This document shows positions 22,608-60,789 of a stretch of 64,000 nt of DNA, piece after piece. The position numbers were made by a program, and so were the translations under genes. The first letter of the stretch is position 1. Each line of letters opens with the position of its first letter. The stretch covers positions 1 through 64,000 of the forward strand of contig JABFQX010000024.1 of NCBI GenBank assembly GCA_013141505.1, given 5' to 3'. This stretch comes from Methyloglobulus sp. Its GTDB lineage: Bacteria > Pseudomonadota > Gammaproteobacteria > Methylococcales > Methylomonadaceae. The notes beneath the pieces are model-generated. The model was not told where the DNA came from, ran no database searches, and saw only the letters and a program-made list of their open reading frames with translations.

Positions 22608-23234
22608 GTGCGGGTCGAAGTCAAACCAATCGACAATCAGATAGATTTTGCGTTTTTGGGTTTGATTGCCGGTGTTGACGAAGCGGGCCGCGGCCCTCTC
22701 GCTGGCCCTGTTGTCGCCGCTGCGGTTATCCTCGATCCAAACCGTCCCATTCAAGGCGTGGCAGACTCAAAAAAACTGTCCGAAAACCAAAGAAATCATC
22801 TTGTAAAACTCATAAAAGAACAAGCATTAAGCTATTCAATAGCACAAGCCAGTGTTGTTGAAATCGACCGATTAAATATCCTGCAAGCTACCCTGCTTGC
22901 TATGCAAAGGGCAATAACAGGCTTATCGGTGTTGCCTGATCAAGTTTTGGTCGATGGCAATAGGTTGCCTGTTCTCAATATACCCGCCCAGGCAATCGTC
23001 AAAGGCGATAGCAAAGTTAAAGCTATCAGCGCAGCATCCATATTAGCTAAAGTAACCCGTGATGCCATCATGGTCGATTACCACAAAGAATTCCCGAGTT
23101 TTGCTTTTCACATCCACAAAGGCTATGGCACTAAACAGCATATTGCCGAAATTGAACGATTTGGCTTTTTGGAAATCCATAGGCGTAGCTTTAATCCGGT
23201 GAAAACGATCTTGGCAAATCTTAGAACACCTTGA
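22608..23234 (+). CDS. rnhB: Ribonuclease HII
   Basis: RNase HII removes ribonucleotides from DNA and RNA from hybrids. The 208-residue protein starts with GTG 22608 and has the catalytic segment [20 protein letters not shown] (Asp and Glu ligands), a further Asp in [11 protein letters not shown] and the segment [15 protein letters not shown]. It follows lpxA by 35 bp; lpxB, often present between them, is absent. Confidence 0.96.
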
Positions 23235-23297
23235 TCCTAAGGGTTTAAAATGCCAACCCAATGTGTTTTGTAACGTTAGCTTAGGAGGGTTATTAAA

Positions 23298-23429
23298 ATG
23301 TCCCAACTGTTTAGACGGTTTTTAGGATTGATATTGTTGATTGCAACCGTCGGCATTGCAACTTGCCAGTCTTTGGTTAAAGCTGAAACTGGGATAACGA
23401 CCACTGTTTCAGCTAAACTAAAACAGTAG
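23298..23429 (+). CDS. Small exported peptide, possibly a truncated BON-domain protein
   Basis: A 43-codon frame with a good GGAGGG about 9 bases before its ATG. The N-terminus is a signal-peptide-like segment (MSQLFRRFLGLILLIATVGI) and the C-terminus ETGITTTVSAKLKQ resembles the first helix of BON domains (typically D-x-x-I-T-x-x-V-x-x-x-L). It ends before the rest of a BON domain, so it is either a remnant or a genuine small envelope peptide. It lies 44 bp before the XpaC gene and may belong to that operon. Confidence 0.5.
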   Translation: MSQLFRRFLGLILLIATVGIATCQSLVKAETGITTTVSAKLKQ

Positions 23430-23473
23430 TAATGTTGTTCTGATATTTAGCCATCATTGTTAGCGAGGTTTAA

Positions 23474-24334
23474 GTGGCCGATTTGTATAGCTACCGGAGA
23501 AATCCCAAGCGTTTTGTCAAGCAGGCGAAAACCTGGTTCAGCAGCAATGGCTTGCTGCTTTATGCAATTCCTTTCTTGGCGATTCCCGCAACGATCAAGG
23601 CGTTCGCAACCGGTAATTTGCCCGCCATTCTGATTAACGCAGGAGCTTATGCTGCCTATATGTTAGCAGCGCGTTTGTTGCGACGTGGACTGCTTGCTGA
23701 AATCAGCTACCGGGAAAAACGCGTCACCCGTGCGCCCAAGTGGCCGCTGAAAACCGTGGCGGCGATTATTGTTACGTTAACCACTTTTGCTTTGGCCTGG
23801 TTAGGCGCACATAACTCATTTTTTGTCTCCATTGCCTTTGGCGGAGGTGCTTTTTTAGGCATGTACCTTAGTTATGGTTTTGATCCACGCGCTGAAAAAA
23901 CCATAGCGGGTGGACACGGTTACACCACCGATGAAATCAGTAACACGATAGCGGCGGCAGAAAATGTCATTTTAAGCATAGAAAATGCGAACAATAAAAT
24001 CCGTAACCTTGAATTTAACACCCGAATAGACCACATTTGTGACACGGCAAGACAAATACTGGATGAACTTGAAAGCAATCCCGGTGCGATCCGCCGAACT
24101 CGCAAATTTCTGCTAGTCTATCTCGAAGGTGCCAATAAGGTGACAACAGGTTATGCGAATACGCACCTGCAAGCTGATATTGTCGAGCTGGAACAGAATT
24201 TCCGTAATGTATTGGACAATATAGAAACGGTGTTTAAAGAACAAAAAGAAAAATTGCTGGAAGACGACCTGTTTGACCTGGATGTTCAGATAGAAGTATT
24301 GGCTAAACAGCTTAAGCACGAAGGTATTGTATGA
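23474..24334 (+). CDS. XpaC-like membrane protein
   Basis: A 286-residue protein of the XpaC (5-bromo-4-chloroindolyl phosphate hydrolysis) family, whose true biochemical role is unknown; members are usually adjacent to TelA. Start is a GTG with GAGG upstream. Visible parts are two hydrophobic regions near residues 25-70 and 90-130 (TVAAIIVTLTTFALAWLGAH, SIAFGGGAFLGMYLSYGF), then a cytoplasmic alpha-helical C-terminal domain (ENVILSIENANNKIRNLEFN, KVTTGYANTHLQADIVELEQ). It overlaps the telA open frame end to end. Confidence 0.8.
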   Translation: MADLYSYRRNPKRFVKQAKTWFSSNGLLLYAIPFLAIPATIKAFATGNLPAILINAGAYAAYMLAARLLRRGLLAEISYREKRVTRAPKWPLKTVAAIIVTLTTFALAWLGAHNSFFVSIAFGGGAFLGMYLSYGFDPRAEKTIAGGHGYTTDEISNTIAAAENVILSIENANNKIRNLEFNTRIDHICDTARQILDELESNPGAIRRTRKFLLVYLEGANKVTTGYANTHLQADIVELEQNFRNVLDNIETVFKEQKEKLLEDDLFDLDVQIEVLAKQLKHEGIV

Positions 24335-24356
24335 GTTTCTTATTTACAAGGGGGTG

Positions 24357-25580
24357 ATGGTGAGTGAAAATCAGTTGGATAAAACAATTTCAGATCAAAT
24401 GCTCACAACGGAGCAAGCTACTCCTGATGTTGCCGCAAAAGTCCAAGAAAACGTACGTGCCAATTCGGTAATAAAAGATTTGGTTCCAGAAACTCAAATG
24501 AACATCACAATGTCTTCGGGTTCATCGAGTCCAGAAGTGGGTCGATTGATGACTGAACTCAATCTTGCCGACAGCAAAACTATCCTGTTTTTCGGCAGCA
24601 AAGCCCAGGAACAACTCACGACCATCTCCGACAAAATGCTCGATGGTGTCAAAAACAAAGATCTCGGGACAGCAGGCAACGACCTCAACGCAATGGTTGC
24701 GGTTATCAGGGGCTTTGATATTGAGTCACTTAACCCTAACCAAAAGCCTGGTTTTTTCGATAAATTGCTCGGTAAAGCCAAGCCGGTTGCCAAATTTATT
24801 GGTCGTTATGAAGAAGTCCGTAAACAGATTGACGATATTGGCGATAAGTTGGAACTTCATAAAACGGCTTTACTGACAGACATAACCGCACTTGACCGGC
24901 TTTATAACGCCAATCTCGACTATTTCCACAACCTGGAAAGTTACATCAAAGCCGGTGAGCAAAAAATTAATGAGCTGGATGAAAAAACAATCCCGGAAAA
25001 AATCAGGCAAACCGAACTCAACGAGCAAACCCTCGCTTCGCAAGAGCTGCGCGATTTGCGTTCAGCGCGGGATGAACTAGATCGGCGGGTGCATGATTTA
25101 CGGTTGACCCGTCAAGTTGCCATGCAAGGCTTGCCGGGAATACGGTTGGTGCAGGAAAACGACAAGGGTTTGGTTAATAAAATCAACTCAACACTGGTCA
25201 ATACCATACCGTTGTGGCGACAACAATTGGCGACCGCCGTCACTATTTACCGTTCTTCGCAAGCAGCCGACACGGTAAAAGCGGCGACAGACTTGACTAA
25301 TGATTTACTAAAAAGCAATGCTGAAAACCTCAAAATAGCCAATGCGGAAACGCGAAAACAACTGGAACGGGGTGTCTTCGATATTGAAACCGTGAAACAA
25401 GCCAACACCTTGCTGATTGCGACATTAGAAGAAAGCCTACAAATTGCTGATGAAGGTAAAAAAGCACGGGCGCAAGCGGTGACAGAGCTACAAGCCTGTG
25501 AATCGGCGCTTCGTAAAACCCTGTCCGCAGCGAAAGCCACGCCGATAGCTACTACATCTGAGCAACAACACACATCATAA
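24357..25580 (+). CDS. TelA-family toxic-anion/tellurite resistance protein
   Basis: A 407-residue mainly helical protein of the TelA family (tellurite, nisin and envelope-stress resistance in other bacteria). ATG 24357 is preceded by AAGGGG; the frame itself is open from 24327 and overlaps the XpaC gene by 8 bases. Conserved family blocks include FFGSKAQEQLTTISDKML, FIGRYEEVRKQIDDIGDKLE and GIRLVQENDKGLVNKINSTL. The exact biochemical activity of the family is not known. The tight link to XpaC matches the known pairing. Confidence 0.88.
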   Translation: MVSENQLDKTISDQMLTTEQATPDVAAKVQENVRANSVIKDLVPETQMNITMSSGSSSPEVGRLMTELNLADSKTILFFGSKAQEQLTTISDKMLDGVKNKDLGTAGNDLNAMVAVIRGFDIESLNPNQKPGFFDKLLGKAKPVAKFIGRYEEVRKQIDDIGDKLELHKTALLTDITALDRLYNANLDYFHNLESYIKAGEQKINELDEKTIPEKIRQTELNEQTLASQELRDLRSARDELDRRVHDLRLTRQVAMQGLPGIRLVQENDKGLVNKINSTLVNTIPLWRQQLATAVTIYRSSQAADTVKAATDLTNDLLKSNAENLKIANAETRKQLERGVFDIETVKQANTLLIATLEESLQIADEGKKARAQAVTELQACESALRKTLSAAKATPIATTSEQQHTS

Positions 25581-25592
25581 CAAGGGATCAAT

Positions 25593-26690
25593 ATGGGCTT
25601 GATAGATAAAATATTAGGCGAATTCGTCGATGTTATTGAATGGACGGATAGTTCAACCGATACTATGGTTTACCGGTTTGAGCGCTACGGCAATGAAATC
25701 AAATACGGTGCCATGCTGACGGTACGGGAGTCGCAAACAGCAATTCTGGTCAACGAAGGGCGCATCGCCGATGTCTACCAGCCCGGTCTATACAAGCTGG
25801 AAACCAATAACATGCCCATCATGACGACCTTGGAAAGTTGGCCTCATGGCTTTAACAGTCCGTTTAAGGCCGAAGTCTATTTCTTCAACATGCGCCGGTT
25901 TACTGACCTTAAATGGGGTACAAAAAATCCGGTCATGTTGCGGGATAAAGAATTTGGTCCGGTCAGGCTTAGGGCGTATGGTACTTATGCGCTGAAAATA
26001 AAAAATCCGGAAGTGTTCAGTAAGGAAATCGTTGGCACTAACGGTCATTTCCGCACTGGGGAAATTAGCGACCAATTACGCAACCTGATTACCTCGCGAT
26101 TTAGTTCGATTATCGGTGAAGCCAATATTCCCGTGCTTGATTTGGCGGGTAACTATGATGATTTGAGCAACTTTGTTAGCACCCGCATTACGCCTGAATT
26201 CCTGGAATACGGGCTGGAAGTTGGCAATCTTCTGATAGAAAATATTTCCTTACCTGAAGAGGTCGAAAAAGCCTTGGATAAACGCACTAGCATGGGTGTT
26301 ATCGGCAATCTGAATGACTACACAAAGTTTCAGGCTGCCGAAGCCATGAAAGCCGCAGCAGAAAATCCATCCGGTGCGGCATCCGCAGGTGTTGGTATGG
26401 GAATGGGCTTTGGCATGGCAAATGAAATGACGAAAGCCTATGCTGATGCCGGTAACAAGCCGGCCAGTCCGCCGCCCGTTCCCGGACAAACGCAATTTTA
26501 TGTGGCAATTCATGGCGAAGAAAGTGGCCCTTTTGATGTGGCTATCATCAAACAGAAAATTCAAAGCGGTGAAATCACCCGAGAGACTTTGATTTGGCAC
26601 GACCCCATGCCTGAATGGATGGCGGCGGAAAAGCTGGATAATCTGATTGGTTACTTTTCTAAAATGCCGCCGCCACTGCCACATTCTTAA
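25593..26690 (+). CDS. SPFH-domain protein (YdjI type) with C-terminal GYF_2 domain
   Basis: A 365-residue protein. Residues 1-240 form the YdjI-like 'virion core' SPFH domain (MGLIDKILGEFVDVIEWTDS, IADVYQPGLYKLETNNMPIM, FSSIIGEANIPVLDLAGNYD). A Gly/Ala/Met-rich stretch (about 250-290) and a proline-rich linker (PASPPPVPGQ) follow, then a GYF_2 domain (FYVAIHGEESGPFDVAIIK, TLIWHDPMPEWMAAEKLDNL). There is no signal peptide. YdjI in Bacillus belongs to a membrane complex (YdjGHI) that recruits PspA. Here the protein follows TelA by 12 bp. Function in this organism is inferred. Confidence 0.82.
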   Translation: MGLIDKILGEFVDVIEWTDSSTDTMVYRFERYGNEIKYGAMLTVRESQTAILVNEGRIADVYQPGLYKLETNNMPIMTTLESWPHGFNSPFKAEVYFFNMRRFTDLKWGTKNPVMLRDKEFGPVRLRAYGTYALKIKNPEVFSKEIVGTNGHFRTGEISDQLRNLITSRFSSIIGEANIPVLDLAGNYDDLSNFVSTRITPEFLEYGLEVGNLLIENISLPEEVEKALDKRTSMGVIGNLNDYTKFQAAEAMKAAAENPSGAASAGVGMGMGFGMANEMTKAYADAGNKPASPPPVPGQTQFYVAIHGEESGPFDVAIIKQKIQSGEITRETLIWHDPMPEWMAAEKLDNLIGYFSKMPPPLPHS

Positions 26691-26710
26691 TAGGCTATCA
26701 GCCCTTTTTT

Positions 26711-27856
26711 GTGTTCAAAGCCATAAAGCAAGCGCCACCCGATAATCCCAAAATTGATCGTTTCCCGTGCAGCAAATGTGGTGCTTTGCTCACGTTTAAG
26801 CCTGGAACCCAGCATCTGGTTTGCGACTATTGCGGTGAACAAAACCAGATTGAAGATCGTCTCGAGGTTATCCAGGAATACGACTTTCACCAGGCGTTAG
26901 TTGAGTTGGCGCGGGCAAAACCTGCCGTAGGCATAGCGCAGATACAATGCGATGCCTGTGGTGCCGGGTTTAAGTTTGCTAACAACGTCCACGCTGGTGA
27001 ATGCCCGTTTTGCGGGACTGCGATTGTTACTGGCACAGCTCAAACAAAGCCGATAACACCTAAATCCTTGCTGCCTTTTAAAATTAACGAACAGCAAGCC
27101 AAGCAGGAGTTTAAACGTTGGCTAAAAGGTTTGTGGTTTGCACCCAGTAAAGTCAAAAAATACACCGATGATGATGCCAAGTTGAAAGGCGTTTACATTC
27201 CCTACTGGACGTACGACAGCGACACGGAAACCCGTTATTTCGGTGCGCGTGGGGATGTGTATTATGTCAATCAAGAAGTTCAAACGGTCAGGGAGGGTCG
27301 AGTCATATATGAGACCCGGCAAGTACCGCAAATCCAATGGACTCCTGTGCAGGGCAGGGTGGCTCGATTTTTCGACGATGTACTGGTTGGCGCCAGCACC
27401 TCTTTACCCCGGCAAATTTTGGATCAACTGGAACCCTGGGATTTGGCAAACCTTGTGCCCTATAACGAAAGCTACCTGAGCGGTTTTACCAGCGAATATT
27501 ATCAGGTCAATCTCGACCAGGGTTTTGATAATGCCAAACGTAAGATGGAAAGCGTCATCTATCAAGATATTGCTTTCGATATCGGCGGCGATCAACAACG
27601 CATCGACCAATTTAATACCCAACACAGCAACACGACTTACAAACATTGTTTATTGCCAGTCTGGTCTGCCGCATTCCGATACCAGCAAAAAGCCTATCAT
27701 TTCATTATCAACGGTAGGACGGGGCAGGTGCAAGGCGAACGGCCTTACAGCTACTGGAAAATCGGCTTTGCCATTTTCTTTGGCGTTATCGTTTTAGTTG
27801 GCCTGTTAATAGCGATGGAGCGGGCAGGGGTGATGCAGGATGTTAGGGGTTATTGA
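26711..27856 (+). CDS. Zinc-ribbon membrane protein (YdjG-like)
   Basis: A 381-residue protein starting at GTG 26711. Two zinc ribbons lie near the N-terminus: CSKC (20-23) with CDYC (38-41), and CDAC with CPFC (about 78-100). The central region is a conserved soluble domain (KGVYIPYWTYDSDTETRYFG), and one C-terminal membrane helix (IGFAIFFGVIVLVGLLIAME) would place the protein on the inner membrane. Proteins of this type are often mislabelled as 'primosomal protein N-prime'. It follows the SPFH gene by 20 bp, like YdjG with YdjI in Bacillus. The exact role is unknown. Confidence 0.75.
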   Translation: MFKAIKQAPPDNPKIDRFPCSKCGALLTFKPGTQHLVCDYCGEQNQIEDRLEVIQEYDFHQALVELARAKPAVGIAQIQCDACGAGFKFANNVHAGECPFCGTAIVTGTAQTKPITPKSLLPFKINEQQAKQEFKRWLKGLWFAPSKVKKYTDDDAKLKGVYIPYWTYDSDTETRYFGARGDVYYVNQEVQTVREGRVIYETRQVPQIQWTPVQGRVARFFDDVLVGASTSLPRQILDQLEPWDLANLVPYNESYLSGFTSEYYQVNLDQGFDNAKRKMESVIYQDIAFDIGGDQQRIDQFNTQHSNTTYKHCLLPVWSAAFRYQQKAYHFIINGRTGQVQGERPYSYWKIGFAIFFGVIVLVGLLIAMERAGVMQDVRGY

Positions 27857-27956
27857 TAGCTCTCAAATGCAATAAACGACAGCTCTTTTAGGTCATCGCT
27901 ATGCTGTCGCCAATAGCCATGCTATAGATCCGGCTTTTTAATATTCGAAGTGGTTC

Positions 27957-28058
27957 CGATGCCCTTCCATTACTTCGGCTACGCTCAGCACAAGTTCGCT
28001 CAGGGCACGTTACCTCTGTGTTCCCTGAGCGAAGCCGAAGGGAAATTAATACTTCATG
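27957..28058. repeat. Palindromic repeat family R1, copy 1
   Basis: Contains TTCGGCTACGCTCAG on the left and the diagnostic right end CCCTGAGCGAAGCCGAAGGG followed by AAATTAATACTTCAT. It matches the elements at 45592-45670 and 60676-60789. It lies between two convergent genes (the zinc-ribbon membrane protein and the zf-TFIIB protein). Confidence 0.8.
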
Positions 28059-28064
28059 ACTGGA

Positions 28065-28742
28065 TTAATAATTGCCAAAAACTTTTGAGACCAACCAAAT
28101 TAACGCGGTCGCTAGGTTTACTGTTATATCACACTGATTATCACCCAGATTGTCATTGCCGCCGCTATAGCTTGAACGGGGTAATCGGGCATGATATTTT
28201 TCCGGTTTTTCCTTGGCTTTCGCGGTTTGCTCGTGCAGCAATTGACCACCGGCTTTTTTCCATTCCAAAAGATGAATAAGTTCGCCGTTATCCAGCCATA
28301 TACCATCTACGATACACTGATCGACAACAACGCCGCTACGTTGCCCGAAATTAACCCGATTCATTAAACGTCGACATTGGGGACATTTGATATATCTGAT
28401 TTTATGGGGCTTTAAATAGCGATCCTTATTGATAGTGTCGATATGTTCGAGATTGATGGCATACACATTGGACACCGAGCTGTGTAGGACGGCTTCGATT
28501 TCGCCGCGATCAAAAAACAAGCCGAAACAGGTTTTGCAGCGTTCGATAAAGACATTATCTTCCAGCGTTAATTTAATGGTCTGTAAAGGAATGTCGCAGT
28601 GAGGGCAGATGCGGTTAGTAACTGTTTTGGCAACAACATACGGTTGCCGAGCGTGTAAATCGACATCATTGCGCGTTCCACAATAATGACATTTATTGAT
28701 GTTGGCAGGTAGTGGTGCGCCACAGTGTTTACAGCTTGCCAT
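28065..28742 (-). CDS. zf-TFIIB domain protein with three zinc-binding modules
   Basis: A 225-residue protein with an N-terminal zinc ribbon (CKHCGAPLPANINKCHYCG) and two zf-TFIIB domains (CPHCDIPLQTIKLTLEDN with ERCKTCFGLFFDRGEIEAVL, then CPQCRRLMNRVNFGQR with VVDQCIVDGIWLDNGELIHL). No catalytic motif is visible. It faces the XpaC-TelA-SPFH-zinc-ribbon operon convergently, and its N-terminal ribbon is of the same kind as that of the membrane protein, suggesting but not proving a shared process. Confidence 0.75.
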   Translation of the reverse strand: MASCKHCGAPLPANINKCHYCGTRNDVDLHARQPYVVAKTVTNRICPHCDIPLQTIKLTLEDNVFIERCKTCFGLFFDRGEIEAVLHSSVSNVYAINLEHIDTINKDRYLKPHKIRYIKCPQCRRLMNRVNFGQRSGVVVDQCIVDGIWLDNGELIHLLEWKKAGGQLLHEQTAKAKEKPEKYHARLPRSSYSGGNDNLGDNQCDITVNLATALIWLVSKVFGNY

Positions 28743-28969
28743 AATTTTTTGTTAGTTGATTTTTATATTGATAATGTCAGTGTAAAGGGTAGTTGAAAAG
28801 TTAGCGGCTGCAAATATCGATATGGCAAGATGTGAGGGCTATCAAATTATTTTTTGGAAATATACTTTGTGATTTTCGTTATTTTTATAACAGTCGATTT
28901 TTACAAAAATCTTCAATTTCCCGGTTTATGACCTAGAATTGACCTATTGATCACACTGGTAAATAGACT

Positions 28970-30145
28970 ATGGAATTTAAAGAATACCTGAAATTGCTCG
29001 TTCAAAATGACGGTTCTGATTTGTATCTGACTGTCGATGCACCACCTGCCGCTAAATTTCAAGGGGTATTGCGGCCTCTGGAAAATATTAAGCTGACTAA
29101 AGATCGGTTAAAGCAAATCGCTTATGCCTTGATGGATACCGATCAGCAGAAAGCATTTGAACACCAGCCGGAATTAAATCTGGCGATTTCAGAGCCCGGA
29201 ATTGGCCGGTTTCGGATTAATATTTTTAAGCAGCGCAATTGTTTTTCCCTCGTTATTCGCAACATTAAGGTAGAAATCCCCAATGCCGATATGTTGGGGT
29301 TGCCTGATGTATTAAAGCGGGTCATCATGGAAAAGCGTGGCTTGATCTTGTTTATCGGCGGCACTGGTTCGGGCAAGTCAACCTCGTTGGCTGCGTTGAT
29401 CGACCATCGTAACGCCAATAGTTCCGGCCATATCATTACCATAGAAGACCCGATTGAATATATCCATCCGCACAAGAAGTCCCTGGTTAACCAACGCGAA
29501 GTCGGGGTTGATACTTTAAGTTATGAGGATGCCCTCAAAAATACCTTACGGCAAGCGCCGGATGTGATCCTGATCGGCGAAATCCGCAGCCAGGAAACCA
29601 TGGAACATGCCTTGGCATTCGCGGAAACCGGGCATCTATGCCTGTCAACGTTGCACGCAAATAATTCCAACCAAGCACTGGATAGGATTATCAATTTCTT
29701 CCCGGAAGAACGCCGTAACCAGTTGTTGCTGGATTTGTCTTTGAATTTAAAAGCCTTTGTTTCCCAACGCCTGGTTCCCACCATAGAAGGTAAGCGGACA
29801 GCGGCGATTGAGATATTACTGGCCTCGCAATTGGTCAGGGATTTGATCCATAAAGGTGATGTTCATTCTATCAAGGAGGCGATGGAAAAATCCGAAAATA
29901 TCGGTATGCAGACCTTTGACAGCCACCTGCTCAGGCTATTCAAGGACGGTATCATTACGCTTGAAGAAGCATTGCTAAACTCTGATTCGCCGAATAACCT
30001 TAAATTGAAGATTAATTTAAGTGAGGGTCATGGCTCGGTATCGCCAGCCAGCAAGGCAGCCGATTCGGCAAAGAGTGGGGTGGCAGGAGGTTTGTCTTTG
30101 CAAGCCATTCACAAAGATGACGATAAGGATGAGCCAGGCATGTAG
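28970..30145 (+). CDS. pilU: Type IV pilus retraction ATPase PilU
   Basis: PilU is an accessory retraction motor that assists PilT in disassembling type IV pili. The 391-residue protein has an N-terminal PAS-like domain, Walker A GGTGSGKST (near residue 128), the Asp box (ITIEDPIEYIH), Walker B (APDVILIGEIRSQETMEHAL) and the His box (GHLCLSTLHANNSNQALDRI). Its length and start (EFKEYLKLLVQNDGSDLYLT) match PilU better than PilT. No pilT is adjacent. The minor-pilin operons lie 9 kb downstream. Confidence 0.9.
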   Translation: MEFKEYLKLLVQNDGSDLYLTVDAPPAAKFQGVLRPLENIKLTKDRLKQIAYALMDTDQQKAFEHQPELNLAISEPGIGRFRINIFKQRNCFSLVIRNIKVEIPNADMLGLPDVLKRVIMEKRGLILFIGGTGSGKSTSLAALIDHRNANSSGHIITIEDPIEYIHPHKKSLVNQREVGVDTLSYEDALKNTLRQAPDVILIGEIRSQETMEHALAFAETGHLCLSTLHANNSNQALDRIINFFPEERRNQLLLDLSLNLKAFVSQRLVPTIEGKRTAAIEILLASQLVRDLIHKGDVHSIKEAMEKSENIGMQTFDSHLLRLFKDGIITLEEALLNSDSPNNLKLKINLSEGHGSVSPASKAADSAKSGVAGGLSLQAIHKDDDKDEPGM

Positions 30146-45591: not shown

Positions 45592-45670
45592 CGTCCCTTC
45601 GGCTCCGCTCAGGGAACGAAACCGTAGCATTCCCTGAGCGGAGCCGAAGGGAAATTAAAACTTCATAAGG
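45592..45670. repeat. Palindromic repeat family R1, copy 2
   Basis: CCCTTCGGCTCCGCTCAGGG on the left pairs with CCCTGAGCGGAGCCGAAGGG on the right, a perfect 20-bp inverted repeat with a short central spacer. AAATTAAAACTTCATAAGG follows, as in the other copies. It sits immediately upstream of fimT-B. Confidence 0.9.
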
Positions 45671-60675: not shown

Positions 60676-60789
60676 GTACCCTTCGGCTCCGCTCAGGTAG
60701 CGCCCCAGTACCTTTCGGCTCCGCGCTTAGGGGACACCCCGGCAAGGTTCCCTGAGCGAAGTCGAAGGGAAATTGAAATTGCATAAGGC
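60676..60789. repeat. Palindromic repeat family R1, copy 3
   Basis: Left part ACCCTTCGGCTCCGCTCAGG and a second partial CCTTTCGGCTCCGCGC, then the right end CCCTGAGCGAAGTCGAAGGG and AAATTGAAATTGCATAAGG. It matches copies 1 and 2, with an extra internal half-unit. It lies inside the lipid operon, between the acyltransferase-hydrolase gene and the thiolase gene. Confidence 0.85.

Follow-up and report, generated by a model that had tools for sequence, protein, structure and literature searches.

The closest described relatives of the gene cluster analysed here are two gene sets which in Bacillus subtilis form separate operons, xpaC-yaaN and pspA-ydjGHI, both of them part of the sigma-W regulon (PMC3498285). 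In the second set, YdjG has a YpeB-related domain and a transmembrane (TM) segment in addition to its pair of zinc ribbons, and YdjH is a TPM protein (PMC11237479). PspA binds YdjI, YdjH made two-hybrid contacts with both PspA and YdjI, and deletion of either ydjG or ydjH abolishes the membrane foci of YdjI and PspA (PMC8581546). The products of the first set, XpaC and TelA (YaaN in B. subtilis), respond to membrane-protein overproduction in a study of CesSR in Lactococcus lactis (PMC3139573) and are under the control of LiaR in Listeria (PMC12791056). In a 64,000-nucleotide stretch of the genome of Methyloglobulus sp. (GCA_013141505.1, contig JABFQX010000024.1, positions 1 to 64,000; referred to as the window), components of both sets occur in one run of four genes on the plus strand, at positions 23474-27856. 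They encode XpaC, TelA, an SPFH protein and a YdjG-type double zinc-ribbon/TM protein, which we abbreviate as ZnR.

The original prediction, made from the DNA alone, had described four tightly spaced genes at this place; analysis of open reading frames confirmed all four, the first three also by Pfam matches, with intergenic gaps of 25 (XpaC-TelA), 12 (TelA-SPFH) and 20 (SPFH-ZnR) bases. The first two repeat the arrangement of the Gram-positive xpaC-yaaN pair (sigma-W in B. subtilis, CesSR in L. lactis, LiaR in Listeria), a PF10112 gene being directly followed by a PF05816 gene, yet the Gram-positive pair stands alone, whereas in the window it is joined to the SPFH and ZnR genes. These latter two match YdjI and YdjG of Bacillus: as in pspA-ydjG-ydjH-ydjI, there is a Band_7_1 SPFH protein of the YdjI type and a TM protein with a double zinc ribbon. 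Unlike that operon, the cluster contains neither PspA nor a YdjH-type TPM protein and carries XpaC and TelA instead, and its SPFH protein ends in a GYF domain where Bacillus YdjI ends in a zinc ribbon. The source genome (3.87 Mb, 99 contigs, completeness 100) has two TPM matches, both on other contigs (C99 and C25); the original prediction had passed over YdjH. Since PspA and YdjH are missing, the cluster does not belong to the Psp systems proper; it keeps the YdjI-YdjG portion of such a system, while XpaC-TelA stands where PspA-YdjH would be. On balance we lean towards the interpretation that a single operon of these four genes encodes an envelope-protection complex attached to the membrane, in which a membrane-anchored SPFH scaffold would recruit TelA.

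Other known arrangements resemble the cluster in part. On a plasmid of Enterococcus gallinarum, genes for an SPFH protein, a relative of ZnR (25% identity, 5e-26) and a TPM protein lie next to one another; this is a Ydj set without PspA and therefore bridges the SPFH-ZnR pair of the window to YdjI-YdjG-YdjH. The clusters of PspA and Band-7 proteins with polyamine genes (PMC11237479) also show a Band-7 protein beside other partners, but they have no TelA or XpaC alongside. NfeD-SPFH (stomatin/flotillin) operons likewise pair a membrane protein with an SPFH protein; that membrane protein, however, is NfeD, which Pfam detected in none of the seven window proteins scanned. A family of Methylococcales, the order of the source genome, has a Band_7_1 gene beside the gene for a DUF4178 protein with a zinc-ribbon-like start (L037). 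A joint XpaC-TelA-SPFH-ZnR unit was not found in the openly licensed papers that were searched: PMC11237479 mentions neither TelA nor XpaC, and PMC9239133, searched for TelA, does not mention it. The component families are known; as far as we searched this literature, their union in one four-gene unit is a new variant.

For the distribution within the order, each family was searched separately in 121 genomes, with score thresholds of at least 350 bits for TelA, at least 300 bits for SPFH and ZnR, and the family cut-off for XpaC. TelA was found in 21 genomes, XpaC in 22, SPFH in 15 and ZnR in 16. All four occur together in 15 genomes and, by their coordinates, form a single cluster in 12 of these; in one genome (G100) the ZnR gene is on a different contig from the other three. 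Every pair of genes is associated, with Fisher p-values between 2e-13 and 1e-22 when counted by genome and of at most 2.4e-6 when counted by genus (36 genera). The pattern is nested, as XpaC is present in all 15 genomes with SPFH, all 16 with ZnR and all 21 that reach the TelA threshold. No neighbour family is common to the flanks of the four-gene unit in the order.

In the phylum, where 398 genomes were searched with XpaC over its cut-off and ZnR above 300 bits, 37 genomes have XpaC, 40 have ZnR and 26 have both (p=3e-22), the two genes being at most 8 kb apart in 20 of the 26. The XpaC counts are lower bounds, because PF10112 misses B. subtilis, which has xpaC. One set is split by contig ends (G507); in three genomes XpaC-TelA-SPFH are together and ZnR is elsewhere (G371, G396, G527), and in two others TelA-SPFH-ZnR are together and XpaC is elsewhere (G363, G529). 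TelA was sought in 39 of the 51 genomes holding XpaC or ZnR and was present in all 17 tested that have both, in all 8 tested that have only XpaC, and in 2 of 14 that have only ZnR. Loci were fetched for 10 of the 25 genomes with both XpaC and ZnR beyond the source genome, and in all ten TelA lies close to SPFH as its neighbour, frequently separated from it by a single gene. It follows from these distributions that XpaC and TelA occur together almost without exception and that SPFH-ZnR is a second module, joined to them often, but not always. Co-occurrence, which the original prediction had named as its check, is thus far above chance in both order and phylum, and together with the gene order it bears out the view that two systems usually described apart are combined here.

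Searching named genomes with the ZnR alignment yielded 579 relatives; the 80 best were retained, and several of the short loci among them end at contig edges. Among these 80, the nearest named relatives of the cluster are Methylococcales. All four genes are present in 32 of the 80 loci (26 in Pseudomonadota, 6 in Campylobacterota), TelA-SPFH-ZnR in one, SPFH-ZnR only in 32 (19 of them in Bacteroidota) and ZnR only in 15. The complete set, in unchanged order, recurs in Gammaproteobacteria, Alphaproteobacteria and Campylobacterota, amid unrelated flanks. Chance proximity in an ordinary housekeeping region, for which the ordinary nature of the flanking genes in the window might speak (RnhB and a pilus-type ATPase), is refuted by this recurrence across classes and in a second phylum, and we give it practically no credence. 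Clustering of all neighbours of the best 80 loci, with a fifth conserved partner in mind, gave no widely common family, local ones only. In Rhodobacterales-type loci of Paracoccus and relatives, a DUF2927 gene stands between TelA and SPFH (L149 4738-5766, L120 4871-5830) as a lineage-specific fifth member, and an acyltransferase and an alpha/beta hydrolase occur as single insertions in clusters. In a plasmid of Vibrio coralliilyticus (L150), SPFH-ZnR lies near genes for TIR-domain and phospholipase D-like proteins, in a region with the look of a defence region.

In the 32 four-gene loci, the gap between TelA and SPFH has a median of 3 bases and is at most 4 bases in 21 of them, and that between SPFH and ZnR has a median of 35.5 bases, with starts chosen by rule. 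The junction between the two pairs is thus the tighter of the two that were measured, TelA-SPFH and SPFH-ZnR. As far as sequence can tell, this tight junction speaks against separate transcription of the pairs, which had been named as an outcome that would refute the prediction. A promoter and terminator scan of 23150-28970 was uninformative on transcription, giving numbers not above those of shuffled sequences (4 promoters against 9.5 and 9 terminators against 6.7).

A quick tree of the joined SPFH and ZnR sequences (57 rows) places the 35 four-gene rows on one side of a branch with a support of 97; the row of Methylotuvimicrobium buryatense, in which the set is split, falls with them. On this tree, the four-gene label needs two changes, compared to about 17 by shuffling. 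In a tree of XpaC and TelA (36 rows), Thiothrix-type Gammaproteobacteria and the Campylobacterota rows fall into one group with a support of 98, as they do in the SPFH and ZnR tree with a support of 82. As the same grouping is seen in both trees, the XpaC-TelA and SPFH-ZnR halves seem to have crossed together between Pseudomonadota and Campylobacterota. Between the two trees, distances correlate with r=0.92 (31 loci), which ordinary descent would give as well. Rows with XpaC-TelA only sit inside the four-gene rows and therefore likely reflect a loss of SPFH-ZnR, as judged from the branching.

XpaC matches PF10112 with E=4.9e-33 and, by hydropathy, has two N-terminal hydrophobic segments followed by a helical C-terminal domain. 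TelA matches PF05816 with E=2.7e-109; it has no hydrophobic segment and is hence soluble. Profiles of the two proteins are unrelated (0.2% probability). The TelA gene probably starts at GTG 24360, which follows a ribosome-site-like stretch, GGGGGTG as read by eye, rather than at TTG 24327, which overlaps XpaC. In the AlphaFold model (mean pLDDT 70), two very long helices span residues 142-220 and 224-327. The source genome encodes a second, divergent TelA (G000:C69 102253-103227; L039), with a 262-residue protein containing a faint TelA-like stretch (E=0.004) upstream and an unnamed 263-residue protein downstream.

The SPFH protein matches Band_7_1 (PF13421) with E=1.8e-99 and GYF_2 with E=2.2e-13, and has no TM segment by hydropathy. 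Its GYF domain is similar to the one in AgmX, a gliding protein (7z3c), and conserved PPP motifs are found both before and after it. ZnR has no Pfam family above the cut-off; its zinc-ribbon matches are sub-threshold, and there is a weak match to PepSY (0.068). An alignment shows eight cysteines in four CxxC motifs, invariant in 50 relatives, which make up two ribbons (C20, C23, C38, C41 and C80, C83, C98, C101). They are followed by a β-rich middle domain (structure model, pLDDT 91) and one strong C-terminal hydrophobic segment at residues 346-376. For the ZnR model, Foldseek returned nothing at E<=1e-3 and VIA-align gave weak matches only; the best of these was YpeB (5boi; Z 4.7, rmsd 3.2, 66 residues), which is too weak by the yardstick of the tool.

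These properties suggest how such a complex might work. Because of their hydropathy, XpaC with two TM segments and ZnR with one would be the anchors, at the cytosolic face of the inner membrane, and SPFH and TelA the soluble pair. SPFH, because of its family, would oligomerise as a scaffold. TelA, because its link to SPFH is the most persistent one of the set, would be recruited and held on this scaffold as a partner or effector, presumably by physical contact. The GYF domain could bind a proline-rich partner, conjecturally the protein's own conserved PPP motifs, within the oligomer. When the membrane or the cell wall is damaged, the assembly would be stabilised at the membrane and limit the harm; as the original prediction had it, this could be a self-contained response. 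A bolder version, which we consider doubtful, has an SPFH system that works independently of PspA, with TelA as its active partner: SPFH, held by XpaC and the YdjG-type protein, would assemble TelA on the damaged membrane.

Several points weigh against a single working unit. The score thresholds for TelA, SPFH and ZnR were set after gaps had been seen in the score lists, and the genomes of the order and phylum samples are not independent. XpaC-TelA occurs without SPFH-ZnR in six of the 121 order genomes, and 11 of the 398 phylum genomes have XpaC without ZnR. Conversely, 14 of the 40 phylum genomes with ZnR have no XpaC (the same 14 of which two have TelA), and SPFH-ZnR is found without TelA in Bacteroidota and in one group of Pseudomonadota; in a search of 38 genomes, TelA was present in 6 and absent from all 25 Bacteroidota and from one Kiritimatiellota genome. 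In M. buryatense 5G (G008) and a congener (G092), XpaC-TelA and SPFH-ZnR are at different sites, the break being precisely at the TelA-SPFH junction. A single joining event may suffice for the sample, and joint inheritance alone is no proof of contact; against this limit, the unit has kept its order across many unrelated flanks.

Since each pair lives alone elsewhere, the notion of two independent envelope-stress devices, which share a regulon and, in Proteobacteria, a transcript while doing separate jobs, is a serious rival. The separate operons of one sigma-W regulon in B. subtilis are in line with it (PMC3498285), as is the separation of the pairs in M. buryatense. On this account, however, one would not expect the junction between the pairs to be the tightest of those measured, nor TelA-SPFH to stay intact in the five rearranged phylum genomes, where it is an outer gene that has been detached. 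A further tie comes from a protein of 587-591 residues, found in G008 and G092 (both of one genus), in which a full NfeD1b is fused to the XpaC helical domain (Table 1). Its gene adjoins an NfeD gene and two Band_7 genes, with an unnamed protein of 511 residues encoded nearby. SPFH proteins usually have NfeD proteins as their partners, and the fusion therefore ties XpaC to SPFH biology by a second route besides gene neighbourhood. We thus regard two separate devices as a possible, though not a probable, explanation.

The original prediction had further proposed that TelA replaces PspA as the soluble helical partner. Its premise, the absence of PspA, is true of the entire source genome, in which PF04012 has no match at E<=1e-3, and there is none within any of the best 80 ZnR loci either. 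Moreover, TelA is soluble, its predicted long helices give it a shape broadly like the subunit of a helical hairpin polymer, and it holds the place of PspA beside the counterparts of Bacillus YdjG and YdjI, all of which would suit an ESCRT-III-like membrane-remodelling polymer recruited by SPFH. The distribution led us to reject a replacement, since PspA is just as rare where TelA is lacking as where it is present: at scores of at least 90 bits, it occurs in 1 of the 15 genomes of the order that hold the four-gene set and 7 of the 106 others, and in 3 of 30 four-gene genomes against 2 of 20 ZnR-keeping Bacteroidota genomes (10 of 30 against 3 of 20 over the Pfam cut-off). Bacteroidota retain the SPFH-ZnR module although they lack TelA and, for the most part, PspA. 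Comparison of TelA and PspA profiles with hhalign, using only six PspA rows, gave a probability of 0.6% over 21 columns, and the TelA model had no Foldseek match at E<=1e-3. The Foldseek and VIA-align lists contain α-pore-forming toxins, CorA/Mrs2, SMC and other long-helix proteins, at a level not above that common for helical models; chains of PspA, Vipp1 and ESCRT-III are not among the 50 matches listed by either program, though a relation is still possible. Finally, B. subtilis has both TelA (YaaN) and PspA in one regulon (PMC3498285). The proposed replacement is therefore not supported, and we consider it unlikely. The absence of PspA does not imply substitution by TelA, and the long helices of the TelA model neither prove nor exclude a functional analogy.

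The family name of TelA, the 2-fold tellurite sensitivity caused by disruption of lmo1967 (cited in PMC12791056) and the eight invariant metal-type cysteines of ZnR might be taken to indicate a metal or oxyanion (tellurite) resistance operon, with the zinc ribbons sensing or binding metal. The same lmo1967 mutant, however, is 4-fold more sensitive to nisin (cited in PMC12791056), XpaC-TelA belongs to the envelope regulons CesSR, LiaR and sigma-W (PMC3139573, PMC12791056, PMC3498285), and no other neighbour family is widely conserved around the cluster, making such a role very improbable.

Table 1. Genes of the cluster in the window and NfeD1b-XpaC fusions in two other genomes
Feature	Position	Strand	Remarks
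XpaC (Halogen_Hydrol family)	23474..24334	+	286 aa; GTG start; PF10112
TelA	24360..25580	+	406 aa; probable GTG start; PF05816
SPFH (Band_7_1, YdjI type) with C-terminal GYF_2	25593..26690	+	365 aa
YdjG-type double zinc-ribbon/TM protein (ZnR)	26711..27856	+	381 aa; GTG start
NfeD1b-XpaC fusion	L032 7682-9445	-	G008 (Pfam run on G008 genes)
NfeD1b-XpaC fusion	L033 6186-7961	+	G092

The cluster is flanked in the window by RnhB, a convergent gene for a TFIIB-type zinc-ribbon protein and the pilus-type ATPase, which differ in family by Pfam. Just upstream of XpaC, a possible secreted or membrane peptide of 43 residues (23298-23429, plus strand) is preceded by a ribosome-site-like AGGAGG and has no Pfam match. 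In the order, the other four-gene clusters examined do not have the TFIIB-type gene (28065-28742, minus strand) next to them; in another genome, a relative of its product is encoded directly after a second, SHOCT-bearing Band_7_1 gene (L035 7405-9128), and the protein may belong to a different SPFH system. The sequence CTTCGGCTNCGCTCAG forms three inverted pairs, at 27973-28040, 45597-45649 and 60681-60767. With six copies where none is expected, it is a dispersed palindromic repeat, one copy of which lies just behind the four-gene cluster.

TelA ('toxic anion resistance') and XpaC ('bromo-chloroindolyl phosphate hydrolysis') are widespread proteins with misleading names. Their SPFH and YdjG-type partners provide a concrete and testable setting for them, namely an SPFH scaffold at the membrane. 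The YdjI-YdjG pair, which recruits PspA in Bacillus, is in turn distributed more widely than PspA and has other partners, or none, elsewhere. M. buryatense 5G, with its two pairs at separate sites, makes the link between the pairs open to a genetic test in a laboratory strain. If SPFH does assemble TelA on damaged membranes, this would constitute a machine for membrane repair whose basis is a helical protein with no relation to ESCRT-III, and the TelA, XpaC and YdjG families would share a function.

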